From contig RCSS01000401.1 of the NCBI GenBank assembly GCA_004000155.1, positions 9,584 to 35,889 on the forward strand: a stretch of 26,306 nucleotides of DNA, in the 5' to 3' direction. Below are positions 5,215-26,208 of this stretch, in pieces. The notes beneath the pieces were generated by a model. It did not search any database. It was not told where the DNA came from and saw only the letters and a program-made list of their open reading frames with translations. Position numbers and translations under genes: made by a program. This stretch comes from Tubulinosema ratisbonensis. Taxonomy: Eukaryota; Microsporidia; Tubulinosematidae. Position 1 is the stretch's first letter. Each line of letters begins with the position of its first letter.

Positions 5215-5745
5215 TTAAAGTAAAGTTTCATTTCTTATGTACTCACCAGTGTCAGCCTGGTTAACTACAACCAATGCTTTACCACTAGACTGAGAAATAT
5301 CACCTGAGCTACGAGCAGTAAGCCCAAATCCTAAAGGAGTGTCATTCTGGTTGTAAACAAATATTATTTGATTTATTGGCACGTTTTCTGATATTTTATG
5401 CATATGTGCTCTTATAATATTATTTTTATATAAAAAATTCATTTCAGCAGAACTTTTAATCCAAATTTTATGAATGGCATAAGGGCTTAGCAAATTTAAA
5501 GCAGTAACTGTGATTTTAAATTTGTCACTTCTGGTAAATTTTCCTATCTGACAGCCACAAGATGCAAGATTTTCTTTTTTTATTTGGTTTGTAAATTTGT
5601 ACATCTTTTTGCTGCATAAGAATACTCTTTTGTTTAGGAAGTATAACTCATTTTCTTCTGTGAGTAATTTGTTTGTATTTTCTCCAATAAAGCTGTTTAG
5701 CTTTGTTAAGACTTTTTCTAATTCTTCTTTCTTAAGTTTTCTCAT
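5215..5745 (-). CDS. NIP7: 60S ribosome biogenesis factor Nip7 (PUA domain)
   Basis: RNA-binding factor of pre-60S particles, needed for 27S pre-rRNA processing. At 176 aa it is essentially full length (180-181 in yeast and human). The N-terminal domain (about 1-90) starts MRKLKKEELEKVLTKL and includes the block around residues 62-90 with GKFTRSDKFKITVTALNLL (human GKFTKTHKFRLHVTALDYL). The PUA domain (about 91-172) shows HKIWIKSSAEMNFLYKNNI, then PLGFG (137-141), and ends VVVNQADTGEYIRNE (159-173), the RNA-binding PUA signature. Human Nip7 has VVFHQADIGEYVRHE there. On the coding strand, CCTAA precedes the ATG. Together with SPB4 it makes two pre-60S factors in this block. Confidence 0.97.
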   Translation of the reverse strand: MRKLKKEELEKVLTKLNSFIGENTNKLLTEENELYFLNKRVFLCSKKMYKFTNQIKKENLASCGCQIGKFTRSDKFKITVTALNLLSPYAIHKIWIKSSAEMNFLYKNNIIRAHMHKISENVPINQIIFVYNQNDTPLGFGLTARSSGDISQSSGKALVVVNQADTGEYIRNETLL

Positions 5746-6667: not shown

Positions 6668-6680
6668 TGCTCTGTTAGAC
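6668..6680. repeat. 13-bp direct repeat, left flank of repeat copy A
   Basis: TGCTCTGTTAGAC is identical to 6902-6914 and lies directly outside the T-run end of the element. It fits a target-site duplication made at insertion. Confidence 0.7.
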
Positions 6681-6901
6681 TTTTTTTTTGTTGCCTAGGG
6701 ATGGGAAATCCATACGGAGATCTTTTCGCTATACCTTCTTTATAAGAGTATTTTCACCTAGTCGACGGAAACATACGGTAAAATATGTTTCCAATGCTTA
6801 GGGATAGCTCAAGATACTGCGAGCCTTTACCGGCTAAAACCACCCCCGTGCACTCTATTGACTGCCTAAGTCTACCTTACCTTGCAGGCTTTGGTTACAG
6901 G
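6681..6901 (-). mobile_element. SINE-like retroposon, copy A (most complete)
   Basis: A 221-bp non-coding element, GC-richer than its surroundings, bounded by an exact 13-bp direct repeat. The left end is a run of nine T, so read on the minus strand the element ends in poly-A. It contains a perfect 9-bp hairpin, GGAAACATA (6767-6775) with TATGTTTCC (6784-6792), and a core at 6811-6892 that recurs at 15895-15977 and 22432-22515. On the minus strand, 6842-6830 reads TGGTTTTAGCCGG, which resembles a pol III A box with one extra base, but no B box (GGTTCRANNCC) was found. Poly-A end, flanking duplication and dispersed, variously shortened copies are the marks of a SINE-type retroposon. A transcribed structured RNA gene family is the alternative. 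Confidence 0.6.
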
Positions 6902-6914
6902 TGCTCTGTTAGAC
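6902..6914. repeat. 13-bp direct repeat, right flank of repeat copy A
   Basis: TGCTCTGTTAGAC, exact copy of 6668-6680, 234 bp downstream. Confidence 0.7.
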
Positions 6915-7062
6915 ATTGGTATTTTTTATTCAAAAAAATATAAAAAAAAATAAATTAGAAAATTAAGGTTTAGAACTCATGTCTAAAAGATTATGTTATA
7001 AAGATATAACAATAATATTTAAAGAAACTTAGTTTAATATTTAATTGTATAAAGATTTTTAT

Positions 7063-7190
7063 GTTGCCTAGGAATGAGAAGTCTTTTATAAATCTTTTGC
7101 TATTCCTTCTATATAAATTATAAGATTTTTTTAATAAGAAACAATTGGTAAAATATGTTTCAACATAACTAAGTTCAGTGCACGAAATGT
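7063..7190 (-). mobile_element. SINE-like repeat, copy B (shortened)
   Basis: Aligns with 6690-6803 of copy A: TTGCCTAGG-ATG-GAA at the left end, then CTTTTGCTATTCCTTCT, the hairpin GAAACA (7138-7143) with TGTTTC (7156-7161) and the conserved loop TTGGTAAAATA. The GC-rich core of copies A, C and D is missing. If the element reads on the minus strand, the missing part is the 5' end, as expected of incomplete reverse transcription. A T-run precedes it (7056-7060). No flanking duplication was found. Confidence 0.5.
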
Positions 7191-7581
7191 GAAACTTTCA
7201 TTTGTTACATAATTAAAATTATATTATTTTTGGTAAAAAAAGATCAGAATAATTATGTTTTTTTTAACTTAAAATATTACAAACTTAATTAATTAGTGAA
7301 TCTTCTAATATCATAGATTTTTAGTAAAAATCTCTATGTTTTTTGAAAAAATTTCAGAAAGAATTTCTAAACAAATAAATTTATCATTTATTTTTTAACA
7401 GCAAAAGAATGTAACTGTAATGATCTTTTAATATCTTTGATTTGATGTTAAAATATAAAACAGGTAAGACGTCTATATGACCAAATAGATGCCTAAAACA
7501 TTACGAAAAATATAAACAGTAAAAAAATACTATGGCTTACAACAATCTTATTAATAAAACCTGTACAAAGTCATTATTTGA

Positions 7582-7715
7582 TAAATTTATTAAAGATAAG
7601 TCCTTCGAATAGGACAAGAATTAATAATTAATTTCTAGATTTTTGAGATGTAACAAATATTAGTTTTGTATTTTTATATATGTTCTATCCGAAAGACTTA
7701 TCTTTAATAAATTAA
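7582..7715. repeat. 35-bp inverted repeat with 64-bp spacer (MITE-like or hairpin)
   Basis: Positions 7582-7616 and the reverse complement of 7681-7715 agree at 31 of 35 positions, including ATTTATTAAAGATAAGT. The spacer is AT-rich with no ORF. It could be a 134-bp miniature inverted-repeat element or a long transcribed hairpin. No target-site duplication is evident. Confidence 0.6.
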
Positions 7716-8115
7716 ACAAAAAAGGTTTATTTAATATTGTAATGTCATAATATTTTTTAATATATCTATTTTTATTAATTTTCTCAGACATTAATTTAAT
7801 GATATAAATGTTATGCTGTTAAATATTTTGGAATTAAACCAAAGATGCCATTACAATACATAAAATGTATAAATACGAAAAATTTTATCTCAAATATTGA
7901 TAATTTAAGCACAAAGATATTTTCTTTAGTTAAGTTTGTCAAAATTATTTTTCTTATTAAGAGTTCTGTTAGAAATTCTCTAAATGTTTACCTTTTGAAA
8001 TATAAATTAATTTACTTGTAAACCTAATACTTTTTACACATATTTTATTAAAAAATTAAAGAGGTAAACTTATTTTTTATAAAAATCAGCAAAAAAAGTA
8101 TTTTTATTTATCTTG

Positions 8116-9177
8116 CTATTTATTTTTTACTTTAGACTCATAATTAACACATCTTAAATAATCACAAGGATGTGTATAAATCAAAAAATTAGTGAAAAAA
8201 TTCAGTTTAGTGACTGAATAATTTTTATATGCAAGCTTAATAAGCCCTTTCATCAAATGTTCACCATAATTTAATTTAGTTGCATAATCATCTGAGATAA
8301 ACTCAACTCTAATATTGTGTAAATGTGTTAAGATAGAATTTACTTCGTTAATGACTGGTAAAAAACAAATTAACAGAAAAAGAGTTAAACTTCTTGCACC
8401 ATCAAAAAATTCTTCGCAGTACCACTTACACATTAAATAAAAGAATGAAAGTACAGAGAAGTATATGATTAAATTTATAATAAAGCACTTATGAACTCCT
8501 AAATTACCTCCATGTCCAATCTCATGAAGTATAATGGCATAAATCTCATCTTCTGTCAAAAATGAAGTGTCCCCCAAAAAAACAATACATTGTTTATAAC
8601 CTATTGGTCCATTAAAACAATTAGTACCCCAATATATTCGTTCTACTGCTACGTAATCAAAATGTTCTGCCATCAAATCAACACATTTGTCTGATATTGT
8701 GGTTATTTGATTTGGTGAAGATAAAATATAGTAATATAATCTGAAATAACTTGTTATTAACTTAGAAATACTAAAAATTATCAGAACTAAGAGAATAAAA
8801 ATGTATGAAATTTCTACCTCTAAAAATTTAACAACCTTATCGATAAAAATTAATGCATAACTTCCAACCAAGAATGAGATTACGTAACTTAAAATATTAT
8901 CTTCTAAAATAGAAGTACACAACACCCAGATAAAATAAATTAAATAAAAACAAGTGTATCCTGGTTGGAGCTCCACTGTGTTCAAAGATTTTTTATTTTT
9001 AAACTCAAAGAAAAATTCATACCAGCTGGTAGAATGAACGGTATCAATGTTGTACAAAATAATAAAAAAATTAATTAAAAATATTAAAAACAGTGCTGCT
9101 TTGATACCNAATTTCTTAAANACATAATAAAANCCTCTTCTTTCGTTAAGCAGGTGACTAGAATTATTATCAACCAT
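8116..9177 (-). CDS. M48 family (Ste24-like) membrane zinc metalloprotease
   Basis: Integral-membrane peptidase of 353 aa. Hydrophobic segments lie at about residues 26-43, 76-91, 97-113, 122-146, 231-252 and 263-276. The zinc site is HEIGH (His218, Glu219, His222) with a third ligand Glu292 in EFISDDYA, followed by a C-terminal THPCDYLR (about 335-342). This is the M48A order HExxH ... ExxxD ... HPxxxxR of CAAX prenyl protease Ste24. Just before the site is GDTSFLTEDEI, nearly the same as in the second protease at 24997-26208. Relatives usually have HELGHW; here it is HEIGHGG. Four N bases (9109-9134) leave three residues near the N-terminus unknown. Ste24 relatives process prenylated proteins and clear translocons in the ER. 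The real substrate here is unknown. Confidence 0.88.
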   Translation of the reverse strand: MVDNNSSHLLNERRXFYYXFKKXGIKAALFLIFLINFFIILYNIDTVHSTSWYEFFFEFKNKKSLNTVELQPGYTCFYLIYFIWVLCTSILEDNILSYVISFLVGSYALIFIDKVVKFLEVEISYIFILLVLIIFSISKLITSYFRLYYYILSSPNQITTISDKCVDLMAEHFDYVAVERIYWGTNCFNGPIGYKQCIVFLGDTSFLTEDEIYAIILHEIGHGGNLGVHKCFIINLIIYFSVLSFFYLMCKWYCEEFFDGARSLTLFLLICFLPVINEVNSILTHLHNIRVEFISDDYATKLNYGEHLMKGLIKLAYKNYSVTKLNFFTNFLIYTHPCDYLRCVNYESKVKNK

Positions 9178-11590: not shown

Positions 11591-12155
11591 TTGCGGGTTC
11601 GGTTAAATTTGTTTTTATTGGATTTTTTCGAATACGTAAAAGAAGAAGTCATTTATTTAACACACTCTTTTTATCCAAAGTTTTTCTAGAAAACTTTTAA
11701 GGTTACAAAAATATAATTTTTGATATTTAGGAATGCTTTATATTTACTGCAAGTTTTTAACTACTAACCCCATATTTGTTCACTCTACTGATTTTAAACT
11801 CTAAATTATCTTTGGTTACAAGAACAATGAGCAAGAATAACAATAATTTTATATCAGAATTTTTCTTTTTGTCTGTTACTTTAAATCAAGATTTATGTTG
11901 TTTAAAAAACTTTCTTAAATAAAAATATTATGATTTAAAAAATTTAATTTTAATTTATCATAAGTTGCCACACAATCCAAACTATAAAAAGAACAGCTGA
12001 TTTTTTAGATGATTTAGTAAAGATAAAATATACTTTGTTTAATTTAATAAGTTATCTTGCACTTCTTTTAGATTGTTTGTTAAAATTTATCAAAAAAATT
12101 GAAAAATATTTTAACATGATTGCGATTGTCTTTTAAAATTTACAGAAGTATTTAG

Positions 12156-12311
12156 ACAGATCTCAAAATTTTAAGTTAACTAAAATAAAAGTATAAGTTC
12201 AATCATCGAATTATAAAAAAATGTATTTTATAAACAGATCTCAAAATTTTAAGTTAACTAAAATAAAAGTATAAGTTCAATCAACGAATTATAAAAAAAT
12301 GTATTTTATAA
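12156..12311. repeat. 78-bp tandem direct duplication
   Basis: Units 12156-12233 and 12234-12311 start ACAGATCTCAAAATTTTAAG and differ at a single position (AATCATCG against AATCAACG). A third unit begins (ACAAATC) and stops after a few bases. Near identity suggests a recent duplication. Confidence 0.9.
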
Positions 12312-12842: not shown

Positions 12843-12980
12843 AGGGTTTTGACGGGAGAAAGGCTCGCAGTATCTTGGGCTATACCTAANTATANAGAAN
12901 CATATTTTACTNTATGTTTCTTCTAAGTAAGCACTAGTATTTTATGTAAAAAACATGACGAAAGATATTCTTTTGAATTG
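12843..12980 (+). mobile_element. SINE-like repeat, copy E (plus orientation)
   Basis: Matches the reverse complement of copy A: GGTTTTGACGGGAGAAAGGCTCGCAGTATCTTGGGCTAT, split by substitutions, then CATATTTTAC-N-TATGTTTC and GACGAAAGATAT. It is the only copy in this orientation. It contains four undetermined bases (12890, 12895, 12900, 12912), compatible with several similar genomic copies having been merged in assembly. The outer ends are unclear. Confidence 0.5.
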
Positions 12981-14098
12981 AACATCTTTTATTAGAAAAT
13001 AACTGACTCAAATAAGATATTGTTAAATAAATATAATTGGTAAATTGTTGTTCTTAATACTTTTATTCAAGTTGGTTTTGATGTATCGCTCATGTTAAAA
13101 AGTAAAAAATTTTCTTGAATTTTAATTGTTAACTAAATTAATAATTAAATTATTACCTTTGTAGATTACTCAAGTAAATGAAACAATTTTACGAAACCTT
13201 ATGAGATCATTAATAAAATAAACAAATTATTTTTTTAAATTAGTTATTTATTATTAATTTGTATTTTGAGGTCATAAACAGTCATAAAATAATTTAATTT
13301 ATTCTTTTAAGAGAAATAACAAATAATATTTAATTATTTGTCATAAACTGAAAATTATTTTAGTTACTAATTGTTTATGAAAGCATAATTTTATTGACTG
13401 TATTTATTTAGTTATTCATATATTTAAAATAATATTTTTGTCATTGCATTAAAGCTTCACAGAAAAAGGTTTTCAGATAATGTAGTGTTCCCCAAGTCGC
13501 ACCTTGCATAACAGATGCCTAAGGATAAAACGATTTAGTGTTAAGAGAAAAATTAAAATTTTTAAACCCTTTTTGTTTATTTAAATTTGATTTGTCTTAC
13601 TTATCCTTCATGGGTATAATTAATAATTTATTTAAATACTAAATAAATCATTAATTTATTCATTTTGAGTAATGGGACATTACAGATAAAAACATTTATT
13701 TTTTTTGTTAAAATAAAATGTTTTGTTTACATATTTATTTGTTTTCTTTTCACTCAGATTCTTAATGGTTAAATTCTTGAATTAAATAAAAACACAACAA
13801 AGATAATTTTTATGTCCTCATTTAACTTAAAATATTTTTAAATGCTACCTTGATAAAAAGAATGTTAAATAAAAATATACATTAAGTATATCTTACTCAG
13901 ATAAATGTATTTTATTCATCTTTTTTTTATTTTCCCGGATAGAATTATCAAAATTTAAAGATTATCTTTTAAATAAAATTTGCTATATTTTAGATATAGA
14001 AAAGATTTTCACAATAATGAATCAATTCTTTAAATAATCAAAAAATGTAAGTAAATTTTGATATTTTATGTAATTAAACAATTTATCTAGTTACAATT

Positions 14099-15283: not shown

Positions 15284-16175
15284 GGTTATTTTTAATTAAA
15301 TTAATATTAGCTAATTTGAAAAACAAATCTTCTTTTTTAAATAAAATATTAAAAGAATTTTTTTTAATTCATATTTTGAAGATTAAAAAAATAGTAATTT
15401 TTAAATAAATAATTTAATTTATTTTATATCACTGAAATATACTTTTAATTTAATTATAGGTAATAAGAATATCTATTTAAACCAACCAGTTTATTTTTTA
15501 ATTCAGTCTTATTAAGAAAGATATATATTCAAATGAAAAATCATAGAATACATAGTTTATGTTGATTATTCATTTTTTAAAACTTAAAGATCAAAAAATA
15601 ACAGATATTATCAAGATCATTGAAGAAATATTTTTAAATTCCTTGTATTTTAAACCTGAAATGTAAGGCAAACTTTTATAATCAACAATGATTAAAATGT
15701 TTTTTAACGGAAAAAATGCTAAACACCATTGAAAATAGAATAAGCCATTTTTTATGATTTATGAATGATTTTTTTGGTAGTTATGGAAAGGAAATTGTGC
15801 TTGGATCTTTTTCTATATCTTCTTTATAAAATATTAAAACCTATCACCAAAGAAATACAAGGTAAAATACGTTTTTACATAACTAGGTACAGTATAAGAT
15901 ACTGCTAGCATTTTACCGGCTAAACCCATCCCGTACACTCTATTGACTATCTAAGCATATTTTACCTTGTAAGCTTGTGTTGCAAGAAAAGTAAAAAGGA
16001 GCATTTAATTACATATCGAAGCTCGAACCTTTATGTAATACGTCTTTCTTATAATTTCTAATCTTTACAAAAATAATAGTTCTTTATAAAAACGCAAATA
16101 TCCTTTTATAAATCATCATCGAAAAATAGAGGTATACTTTTAAAAAAATTTCTATCTATCTCATAATTTACTTAA
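15284..16175. other. gap with repeat copy C
   Basis: 892 bp without a gene between GCN5 and the PAP2 gene. The main content is repeat copy C (about 15769-15991). The remainder is AT-rich spacer with no ORF or recognisable RNA gene. Confidence 0.7.
15769..15991 (-). mobile_element. SINE-like repeat, copy C (near full length)
   Basis: Collinear with copy A over its whole length: T-run (15769-15775), TATCTTCTTTATAA, the GGTAAAATA loop with a decayed stem, and the core 15895-15977 with AAGATACTGC, ACCGGCTAAA, ACACTCTATTGACT and ACCTTG. On the minus strand, 15928-15916 reads TGGGTTTAGCCGG, the A-box-like block of copy A. The right end CAAGAAAAG is shared with copy D. No flanking duplication was found, so the insertion is probably older than copy A. 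Confidence 0.55.
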
Positions 16176-21798: not shown

Positions 21799-24700
21799 AT
21801 ATTTACTTCTTTTTAGTTTAAATACAAAACTAGTTAGTTTTTTCAATAACCCAGATTTTTTCAAATATTCATATTTTATAAAGAGACATAATACAATCAT
21901 TGAGTAGTGTTTTTCTATTAAAAAATTTACATTTTTAATTTATTTTATTTAGAAAACATCATTTTTAATTTTACTAAACTGAAAATAAATTTTTTTGTTT
22001 ATTAAGAATTGTAAATTTATACAGATATCTTCTAATACACTTTCTTGTGATATTCTATAGATAGTATTTGTGAAAGCAATTATCCTTAAACTAAAGATGA
22101 TACGCTTTGTTATTTTTGTTCCATTTTAGAGTTTTTATTAAATTGTTGACAAACAAAATGCCATAATTATTTATTTGAAGCATTTAAATTTTTTGAACCA
22201 GCTAATCAGCTTTTTATTTTTTCTAAATATCAAGAAAGTCAAAGGGTGAGACTTATTCGCATAAAAAGTCTTGTCAGAAGGTGAGCTGGCAAAAGAAAAA
22301 CAAATAACAGCAGAAGAGGATACAGGACAAGCAGAGGAATGTGTGATTGACTGCCACGTTCCTTAAAAAATATTAATACATGCTCATAAAGAAACATTNG
22401 TAATATATTTTTTTATATATACATGCTAAACGTAAGATATTGCAAGCGTATCACTCGCNNAAACCTTCCCCAGACACTCTATTGATTGCCTAAGTTTACT
22501 TCACCTTGCAGGCTTTATCTACAAGAAAAGATATAGTTNAAAAATTTCTACAAAAAAGATTAATTAGATTCAAATCGGTTAGCTACATGTAGGGATATAG
22601 AGTAATTATAATTTAATAATGCAACAAAAAAGAAAATTAAAGCCAATTCAAAAAATGTTAGACTTGGTAAGTAGAGAAGGGTAAAATATCTCAAAATGAT
22701 TTGTAAAAAATAATTGAAGAAATATTTCTAAATGTTACAATCCTAAGAAACAAAAAAAACTTTTAAATAAATAATTTTACTCAGAGAGTATCTTTATTTG
22801 TACTACATGGAAATAAACAAACATCCTCTTGGATTTGATAAAAATTTCGTAATGAAATTCTTAATATTTTGTAAAATTTAGAACAGTGTTTGGATTTTAA
22901 AAATATTTTTATTATCACATATAAGAAATTTTACCCATCACTACAATATGTCTGATGTCTATTAAACCAGAAAATTTTAACAAATAATGATACTAGAGAA
23001 ACTCCAAAGACTGCATAAAGCGTTTTCAGAGACAATTTTTTGCAAAGAAATGACAGAAAATATTGACATTCTTTTGCATACATCTGTTATCTGATCAATA
23101 AATGTCAAGAGATTCACTGAAGTAAAATACTCAAAACTTAAAAGATAGAAACTTTATTCGTAGATCAAAAATAATAATTAAAAAATTCTCTTAATAAACA
23201 ACTTATATATTCTAAGTTATTTTATAAAAGAATTAAAATCACACGAATTTGATGTTAATCAGAATTTTAATTCCAAGATTTTTAATCCGAACAACTAAGG
23301 GATCTTTAATAATTTTTTATTTATTTAAGTCTTTAATTTTTATCACCCGAGAAAGAGAGGAGCAATATAATTATTAAAATTAACAAACACTTTTAAATTG
23401 AAAACTAAAAAAAGCGAGCATTGTAAACCAGTAACTTACCGAGAAAATGTACTTTATAGCTATATTAAATGTCTTAAAAAAGGGCTGTTTACACTTAAAG
23501 GATTAATTTCATATTCTTTCATACGAAATACGGTGAAAAAAATTTCTAAAAGATGAATTTATGCCAGGCCCATCAAGCATAAAGTAGACTTAACCTTTTT
23601 TTAGATGAAACTGGCATTAATTACATTAATATAGTAATTATGAGCACTTACTCAAGAGAATATAATCAGTGTAAATGATGAAAGCAATAGAATTTAGCAT
23701 ATTAACAGTATGATGATTATAAAAAATTCAAACCTGTTGTGCTTTTAAGTAAAGGTTGATTCATTTGACGAAGGTTTATTGATTGAATTCATTAATACAA
23801 AACTAATGCCACATTTACGAATTCAATAAAATATGTTTTAACAATGAAAAGCTAAAAAAATACAATTTAGAAATGATGTTATCAGTTTATATAAACATTC
23901 AAACATTATTTATACATTCTTTTATCTTATTCATTTCAATAAAACTTATTTTAAGGTTATTCAACTGCTTTAAGTCTAAAATTTCTGCTTTTGTCAAGCA
24001 TAAAACAGAAGAGAAGAAATTATATCATCGTATCCTGATAAATACTGACATAAATCCTATGAATAAAGTAAAAAAATACTAAATTTGAAAATTTTCCTTT
24101 TTTTATTTTTTTCTTACACATATTCATCAGAGTCAAATTTTAAAAATCTTTAAGTAAAAAGACATAATACATTATTATTCATATTTTGGCTCAATGTATA
24201 TTATTTTATAACATAAACAAATACTAGAAATAGTTAAAAATAAATTTATGTGTTTGAAAATTGATTTATTAATATGAGAAGATGGATTGATAAAGCTTTG
24301 AGTAAATAAGAACTTGATTAATTAAATAAAACAATGTAAAATTTTGATATAAATGTTACAGAAGAAAGATATAAAAAATAACGAAGAATTTTTGTTAAGC
24401 CTCATGGAGAAAGATCCTGTGATAAGAAAGGGTTGATAAAAAATGTATTTATTTTTGCTGTAAATAAAAAAATTTCTAGCATTTTGTTTATTTAAATTTT
24501 TCTTACTGAATATCATGAGAAAAAGAATGGGAGTAGTATTCTTTTATAATTTTTGATTTTAAAAACGTATTTTAAATAGTAAATCATATGATATTTGATA
24601 TCTTTTTTGTGTATTTGCCTTGTATTTTCATAAATTTTCTACAAGGTCATAGTTTGAATCAAAACAAAATTTTGCACGAAAATTCAATTTTATTATTAAA

Positions 24701-24996: not shown

Positions 24997-26208
24997 TTAT
25001 TTACATTTAATATTTAATATTCNATGATAAATGCTAGGATGATCACACAAAAAATAACTGTAAAACCTAGGCTTATAAAACAAATCATCATTAATCAAAT
25101 ACATTTTAAAAAACCCACTAATTATATCTCCATCAGGTGCTATTCTTACAGCCTTTAGATCAACTAAATATTCCATATTCTGTGAAAAGAAATTTAAAGA
25201 CAAATAATAAATCGTAGAAAAGAAATATAAATTAAAATAAAAGAGAAATATTTTTGCTTCGTTGTGATCAAATCTTGAGTCTATTTTTTTGGCGTATAAT
25301 TTTATTATTTCGTAATATAAAGTGAATAAAAAAACTGTTAATAGATATTCTAATAGATAAACTAAAATACATTCTAATGTTCCGCCATGTCCTATTTCAT
25401 GAGAAACACATCCTAAAATTTCTGATTCTGTAAAACCAGACCAATCACCAAAAATTAATAAACTTTTTGTAAAAAAATTTAAAAAAGTGCCCATGTTTAC
25501 TTGTTCACTTAAGAAATAATACACGTTCTTTTTTCCATAAAAGTTTTGTGCCATTTCCAATCCTTTACCACTCAAATTTTGAGGTATGTTTGTATTTTTA
25601 GAATAGAATACAGAAAAAATGATTGATTTTATGAAATAGACATAAGGAAAGAAAAGTAAAAAAGAAGAAATAAAAACATTTCTTCTATTTAAATACTTTA
25701 CACTTCCAAACAACTTTCTTCTGACTAAAAATAGTAAAAAAAAATAAACAAAAATCGCAGGTACATAAAATCTCAAATCAATCATCAACGGAAAAAGCAT
25801 CGGTACAAACAATAAACTCAATAAAGAAAGAAAAGTAAGCACTGCTCTGTTATTCTCATCATTAAAAAAAGAGTAATATTGTGGAAAAGTGATAAGAATC
25901 CTGCAAACCTCTACAAAAGTATCATTCGTTCTTCTAAAATAAAACAATAAATTAAGTAAAACCATAAAAAACAAAGTAAAGATATCTTCACTTATTTCCA
26001 ATAACAAAATCTCACAATTTTTCATTTCTTTTATTTTAAAAGAATACCTTATTTTTTCTACTTCATCATTTACTATTTTTTCTTTAAAAATAGGTTTATC
26101 AGAATTGAGTTTTCTTTCATAACATTTTAAATCTACATAGCTGTAAACTAAGATCAAAAGATAAACACCTAATGCTAAAAGTAAAAATAGTTCTAGTTTG
26201 AATTTCAT
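24997..26208 (-). CDS. second M48 family (Ste24-like) membrane metalloprotease
   Basis: Membrane peptidase of 403 aa, a divergent paralogue of the protease at 8116-9177. Zinc ligands His270 and His274 with catalytic Glu271 (HEIGH, 270-274), and a third ligand Glu346 with Asp350 in EYLVD. The C-terminus has HPSIYH (390-395). LLIFGDWSGFTESEI precedes the active site, matching the other copy's VFLGDTSFLTEDEI. Both have the unusual HEIGHGG. Hydrophobic segments lie at about 5-24, 76-91, 123-141, 148-162, 178-201, 279-300 and 320-342, so it is strongly membrane-bound. N at 25023 leaves residue 396 unknown. Ste24 itself cleaves prenylated proteins; the role here may have shifted. Confidence 0.85.
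   Translation of the reverse strand: MKFKLELFLLLALGVYLLILVYSYVDLKCYERKLNSDKPIFKEKIVNDEVEKIRYSFKIKEMKNCEILLLEISEDIFTLFFMVLLNLLFYFRRTNDTFVEVCRILITFPQYYSFFNDENNRAVLTFLSLLSLLFVPMLFPLMIDLRFYVPAIFVYFFLLFLVRRKLFGSVKYLNRRNVFISSFLLFFPYVYFIKSIIFSVFYSKNTNIPQNLSGKGLEMAQNFYGKKNVYYFLSEQVNMGTFLNFFTKSLLIFGDWSGFTESEILGCVSHEIGHGGTLECILVYLLEYLLTVFLFTLYYEIIKLYAKKIDSRFDHNEAKIFLFYFNLYFFSTIYYLSLNFFSQNMEYLVDLKAVRIAPDGDIISGFFKMYLINDDLFYKPRFYSYFLCDHPSIYHXILNIKCK

Follow-up and report, generated by a model that had tools for sequence, protein, structure and literature searches.

Copy A, a 221-bp element in a 26,306-nt stretch of the genome of the microsporidian Tubulinosema ratisbonensis (the window, i.e., the whole stretch of DNA analysed), belongs to a dispersed family that is best explained as a non-autonomous SINE-like retroposon moved by target-primed reverse transcription, with an L1-like LINE as the most likely helper; we put the probability of this reading at about nine in ten. 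The case for SINE-like behaviour is strong, and the suggestion of a SINE-like retroposon made in an earlier note on this DNA is supported by dispersal of the family, A tails, target-site duplications in 14 of 65 copies and an unoccupied paralogous site. No known eukaryotic genomes are smaller than those of microsporidia, among which SINE-like spread is little documented; the family shows that parasitic DNA is sustained even where the genome has been stripped down.

The body of copy A occupies positions 6690–6901 of the window on the minus strand (212 nt; sense strand CCTGTAACC...CCCTAGGCAAC) and ends in a tail of nine A at 6681–6689, read as nine T on the plus strand. Body and tail together (6681–6901, 221 bp) are bounded on both sides by the exact 13-bp sequence TGCTCTGTTAGAC, at 6668–6680 on the A-tail side and at 6902–6914 on the 5′ side. 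No frame of at least 80 aa in the list of open reading frames of the window overlaps copy A, the nearest listed frames being a NIP7-like gene (5215–5745, minus strand) and an M48 peptidase-like gene (8116–9177, minus strand). Coordinates and frame list thus confirm the element as the earlier note had described it, non-coding, 221 bp long, with a nine-T run and exact 13-bp flanking repeats. The minus-strand poly-A tail and the duplication of SINE/LINE size are equally confirmed, the duplication of copy A scoring 13 against a maximum of 7.3 among 2557 controls in which flanks of this genome were mispaired. A search of the window alone with nhmmer returned five copies or pieces, among them an old and partly recognisable copy at 7057–7200 (minus strand; E 5.4e-12; model positions 73–219), an old partial copy at 12844–12987 (plus strand; E 7e-23; model positions 60–204; core 24-mer with one mismatch), an old near-full copy at 15769–15984 (minus strand; E 4e-34; model positions 3–220) and an old copy without its 3′ part at 22359–22523 (minus strand; E 6.7e-23; model positions 3–167). 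The window also holds a 78-nt stretch duplicated head to tail at 12153–12308 (97% identity) and a 43-nt inverted repeat at 7574–7616 and 7681–7723 (86% complementary, spacing 64 nt), with arms of the GATAAGTC-CTTCGAA type. A HEIGH (HExxH) stretch occurs in two of its frames, 8116–9177 and 24997–26208, both on the minus strand, of which only the former is reached by the Pfam model Peptidase_M48.

The earlier note had proposed comparing copy A with the whole assembly, and this comparison revealed a dispersed family. A DNA search of the organism's own assembly (4,116,903 bases in 236 contigs, 4.12 Mb) gave at least 41 matches including copy A itself, a lower bound obtained by scoring the best 40 of 274 first-look candidates. 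A 24-nt core pattern, allowed up to three mismatches, occurs at 130 places (72 forward, 58 reverse), whereas the same pattern reversed occurs at none in the same assembly under the same mismatch limit; the exact core 24-mer is present in at least 31 of the core places listed. By simple arithmetic, 130 copies of 222 nt would make up about 0.7% of the assembly. The core pattern undercounts old copies, since it lists only two of the five copies or pieces found by nhmmer in the window. Like a SINE, the element is therefore short, non-coding and dispersed in many copies. The loci examined contain 73 non-identical family matches, 54 of them near full length and 19 partial; one partial match (L037:184-222) is an artefact, namely the inner hairpin of a full copy in reverse reading, and is not among the 65 copies tested below. 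At L034:401-768 (contig C158), two copies lie head to tail, the second, which begins at consensus position 65, abutting the A tail of the first. No exact 23-mer match was found in the viral_contigs and genome_contigs collections, which are viral and prokaryotic and hence say nothing about other microsporidia.

Both ends are common to all 54 near-full copies. The 5′ end (CCTGTAACC) is sharp, most of these copies starting at consensus positions 1–3, and the 3′ end consists of GGCAAC plus the A tail. Tails and duplications were scored in the 65 copies that reach the 3′ end with enough flanking sequence, any leading A of a duplication merging with the A tail. A common A-rich 3′ end is evident, with tails of 7–9 A in 51 of the 65 and tails of more than 10 A in none. 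The longest run of A or T in the 114,064 bases examined is 11, in a genome of about 77% A+T, so tail shortness may be a general feature of this genome, in which the absence of A/T runs longer than 11 may limit tail length. Under a strict test, which required a 3′ repeat beginning within the tail or immediately behind it and a 5′ repeat ending no more than 25 nt from the element start, exact duplications of variable length (9–17 nt; score of at least 8) flank 14 of the 65 copies, while 0 of 2557 mispaired controls reach such scores (best control 7.3). The expectation of poly-A ends and flanking duplications in other copies thus held well for the tails and in part for the duplications, 51 of the 65 copies showing no clear one in this test. 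One copy cut down to consensus positions 195–221 (L098; 27 nt of body plus tail) keeps an 11-nt duplication in the strict test, and in six full-length copies 2–4 extra nucleotides separate the duplication from the element.

A clear duplication by the strict test is absent from 21 of the 22 copies below 90% identity, where decay accounts for the loss, but also from 20 of the 30 copies with at least 94% identity; mutated duplications, 5′-extended copies and duplication-free insertions are candidate causes for these young copies, and they do not amount to a full explanation. When mismatches were allowed and the search was extended up to 400 nt upstream, 19 of 62 copies scored at least 12, against 1.9% of 913 controls. 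Among the copies gained by this looser test is L047, whose 15-nt duplication lies 31 nt upstream of the usual start (score 17, control maximum 18); L040, a copy that begins at consensus position 31, scores only 11 in it, a value attained by 4.2% of controls.

The copies form successive subfamilies. The 39 copies collected by similarity to copy A differ from their consensus by 2.7–10% (4.5% for copy A itself), and all 54 near-full copies differ from the consensus by 2.4–24%. An extra base in one column is carried by 11 of the 12 copies at 11.6% divergence or more versus 3 of the 42 below, and a gap at another place by 7 of 7 copies at 16% or more versus 0 of the 47 below, both as judged by eye; these ordered shared changes point to successive source copies. 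The closest pair of copies differs by 3.8%, and current activity is not claimed because no very similar pair was seen. A SINE-like family with so extended a history in an assembly of only 4 Mb implies that LINE machinery was active there in trans over a long period. The unoccupied target site, with the duplicated stretch present once, was found in one paralogous case: both flanks of the copy at C235 align with a single stretch of C104 (89% and 92% identity), where their alignments share 11–14 nt, corresponding to the stretch doubled around the element. An RVT_1-bearing open frame (L096) lies about 150–470 bases from the unoccupied stretch; the insertion thus appears to have hit a repeated region, one empty copy of which is still present.

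The internal polymerase III promoter that typifies SINEs, with its A and B boxes, is not apparent. The A box (TRGYNNARNNG, up to one mismatch) occurs once in the consensus versus a mean of 2.1 in 300 mononucleotide shuffles, so the possible A-box-like block of the earlier note is no better than chance; the lack of a B box that it had also reported is confirmed, GWTCRANNC with up to one mismatch being found 0 times (shuffle mean 0.78). With both boxes at chance level and no small-RNA head recognised by Rfam, polymerase III transcription is unproven, and the family is not shown to be a classical polymerase III SINE. Four stretches compared with Rfam at E values up to 10 gave no credible hit, any scores being far below the gathering scores. 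A tRNA origin found no support: there is no tRNA in the window and none in the consensus. An SRP RNA origin was considered on account of the 5′ end CCTGTAAC, which resembles UGUAA, a motif characteristic of the SRP Alu domain, and was set aside for want of a match to RF00017 or any other credible Rfam match; this negative is weak, since RF00017, at E values up to 10, matched nothing in the genome, including the organism's own SRP RNA, and diverged RNAs can be missed.

Some copies extend further upstream. Sequence upstream of CCTGTAACC is common to four copies, and at least 160 nt of it is shared by the copies at C52, C201, C36 and others. A search of the assembly with 215 nt of upstream sequence found 11 places including the query, and in 6 of the 10 non-query places this long form starts within 3 nt of the same point, about 160 nt upstream of the short form; in an alignment of six long copies, about 25 nt more appear by eye to be common to four. 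We read the long form as a rarer, 5′-extended form of the same family, so that the complete element may be longer than the 221-bp unit. A LINE origin of the long form found no support in the 1.7 kb upstream of the long copies at C2 and C189, which holds no LINE-like frame. At C201, LINE reverse transcriptase remnants lie upstream of the long copy in the same sense, and the sequence upstream of the C52 long copy gave one weak 21-aa match to that upstream of C201 (E 0.001). Tentatively, the family could be taken as a SINE-like family that arose within the microsporidia from an RNA other than tRNA, 5S or 7SL RNA, with a long (~380–407 nt) and a short (222 nt) form that have their 3′ end in common; a second start, RNA processing or a strong stop in reverse transcription would then account for the short form. 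We know of no described SINE with such coexisting forms. Another repeat, of at least 128 nt, occurs without the family at the edge of C82 (L110:2-129) and adjoins the long form at C2 (L108/L105) and C36 (L104); it looks like a separate repeat.

The retroelements of the assembly include degenerate or diverged LINE remains at three places. RVT_1 matches were found at 27 places, and two of the ten frames scanned for domains also carry an aspartic protease domain, as in Ty3/Gypsy elements. At L071 (C231), LTR-retrotransposon-like frames of 269 aa and at least 875 aa contain, by eye, gag-, protease-, reverse transcriptase-, RNase H- and integrase-like stretches. The endonuclease model PF14529 matches one place in the assembly, C19, where endonuclease and reverse transcriptase are spread over three separate frames, which marks this LINE copy as broken. 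The nearest solved structure to the C19 reverse transcriptase piece is LINE-1 ORF2, and a large protein search, in which the 7995 candidates sharing the most common words were scored, related it to at least seven proteins at 27–32% identity, the named ones mainly from Rhizopus. Diverged LINE sequence also occurs at C157 and C201. The assembly, which may be devoid of young repeats, yielded no intact LINE. Family pieces lie downstream of the reverse transcriptase remnants in the same sense at C19, as a 32-nt piece about 615 nt past the reverse transcriptase stop, and at C201, the true 3′ ends of these LINEs not having been located, while the stretch examined downstream of the C157 LINE contains no sense-strand copy. 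The search for a LINE with a matching 3′ end that the earlier note had advised thus yielded degenerate LINEs only, at C19, C157 and C201, none of which demonstrably matches.

These observations bear on a different account, in which the 222-nt unit is the 3′ end of a longer element, be it a LINE or a long retroposon without coding capacity, and 5′ truncation at a strong reverse transcription pause at CCTGTAACC would have produced most copies; movement would still proceed by target-primed reverse transcription. The shared upstream sequence, the positions of family pieces relative to the C19 and C201 reverse transcriptases and the occurrence of copies truncated at other points are all in keeping with it. 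However, the sharp 5′ end of the short form, with duplications directly at that end, argues against a truncation product, as do the restriction of the long form to 11 listed places with a fairly sharp start of its own, the lack of LINE-like frames in the 1.7 kb upstream at C2 and C189 and the C157 LINE, which has no sense-strand copy in the downstream stretch examined. This account appears rather unlikely. The earlier note had regarded membership in a longer autonomous transposon as fatal to its reading; a longer 5′ form does exist, and no intact LINE was found.

Two other explanations dispense with LINE-driven movement. The copies could be a dispersed functional small-RNA gene or its pseudogenes, without mobility, as might be suggested by the GC content of the consensus body (43% versus 23% for the window), by a fold of the consensus at −66.3 kcal/mol and by two copies whose folding is modestly more stable than that of shuffled sequences (z −2.16 and −1.67). 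RNAalifold predicted no base pair and no covarying structure on 54 copies. Scattered, decaying copies that number more than 100 and bear tails and duplications, weighed together with the C235/C104 site and with the Rfam result, in spite of the diverged RNAs that Rfam can miss, make such a gene very improbable; the Rfam comparison included rRNA, snRNA, tRNA, 5S and SRP RNA, so that the element is not recognised as the rRNA or snRNA gene that the earlier note had also named as a refutation. Least probable of all is an origin as a MITE, derived from a DNA transposon, or as a solo LTR, even though Ty3/Gypsy-type elements are present in the genome and they too leave target duplications. LTR integrases and MITE transposases produce short duplications of fixed length, and solo LTRs have TG...CA ends and 4–6 bp duplications; here, duplication length varies from 9 to 17 nt, and the ends, read directly from the consensus as CCTGTAACC and GGCAAC plus A tail (CC...A), are neither mutual inverted repeats nor TG...CA.

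Altogether, the preferred reading, that of a SINE-like retroposon, leads to a model in which a few source copies would give rise to a short structured RNA, whose A-rich 3′ end would be used by a LINE endonuclease-reverse transcriptase. This enzyme would nick the target and copy the RNA into the nick, which would yield variable 9–17 nt duplications, a short A tail, stray nucleotides at the 5′ end and some 5′-truncated copies. What the sequences themselves show is the dispersal, the A-tailed 3′ end in common, the duplications, including that of a truncated copy, the single unoccupied paralogous site and the succession of subfamilies. We infer an RNA intermediate with its promoter, as well as the helper, which is probably an L1-like LINE with an apurinic-type endonuclease, whose degenerate remains would be those seen in the assembly. 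Counting against this reading are the many young copies in which the strict test reveals no clear duplication, A and B boxes no better than chance, the lack of a recognised small-RNA head, of an intact LINE and of a LINE 3′ end that demonstrably matches, the short and uniform tails, the lack of covarying RNA structure and the existence of the long form.

That the genome is of microsporidian type, as the earlier note had assumed, is supported by the relatives of the GCN5-like gene of the window. Its closest protein relatives are 81, 74 and 72% identical, and the best organism-labelled match is jgi Antlo1 (49%), which we take to be Antonospora locustae, followed by Encephalitozoon, Vairimorpha and other microsporidia; among the first 40 matches listed, all organism-named proteins are microsporidian but one, which is recorded as contamination of a louse assembly. 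A literature search, conducted outside Repbase, SINEBase, supplementary files and most subscription journals, found no characterised microsporidian SINE family, in line with the earlier note, which knew of none that was well described; the nearest record is an unclassified "SINE" row in the repeat table of Nosema bombycis (28,669 bp, 0.18% of the genome) in the text available (PMC3614468). Microsporidian repeat surveys, in their available parts, describe LTR elements, LINEs and DNA transposons and no SINE family (PMC4202319, PMC3614468, PMC13174016), and a term search for the word SINE gave 0 occurrences in the accessible text of PMC4202319, PMC3749934, PMC7313128, PMC12558613 and PMC13174016. 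The sexual reproduction and ploidy of microsporidia are under study, according to the part of the article available (PMC12558613). The family would supply insertion markers for microsporidian isolates, as well as a structured non-coding RNA with a traceable origin.

Among known systems, the SINEs Alu and B1 carry poly(A) tails and are mobilised by L1-type LINEs. The present family resembles them in being short, non-coding and A-tailed, with variable duplications and successive subfamilies, but differs in having no detected 7SL or tRNA head and no A or B box, in its long and short 5′ forms and in the uniform tails of 7–10 A found in all young copies but one. Young Alu copies carry long A tails, unlike the short and uniform tails seen here. 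AfuSINE of Aspergillus fumigatus, with reported duplications of 4–14 bp, likewise resides in a fungal-side host and has target duplications; fungal SINEs are, in the portion of the source available, described as tRNA- and 5S-related (PMC5063351), a description that sets them apart from the present family, which has no Rfam tRNA or 5S match. The Nosema bombycis "SINE" row is also microsporidian, and the available text gives no subtype, sequence or mechanism to compare (PMC3614468). The four LINE families of Anncaliia algerae (PMC4202319) and the Dong-R4 and L1 LINE types of Microsporidia sp. MB (PMC13174016), as reported in the accessible parts of these articles, are autonomous and long, unlike the SINE-like family, and represent a possible type of helper, an endonuclease- and reverse transcriptase-bearing LINE being present here too.
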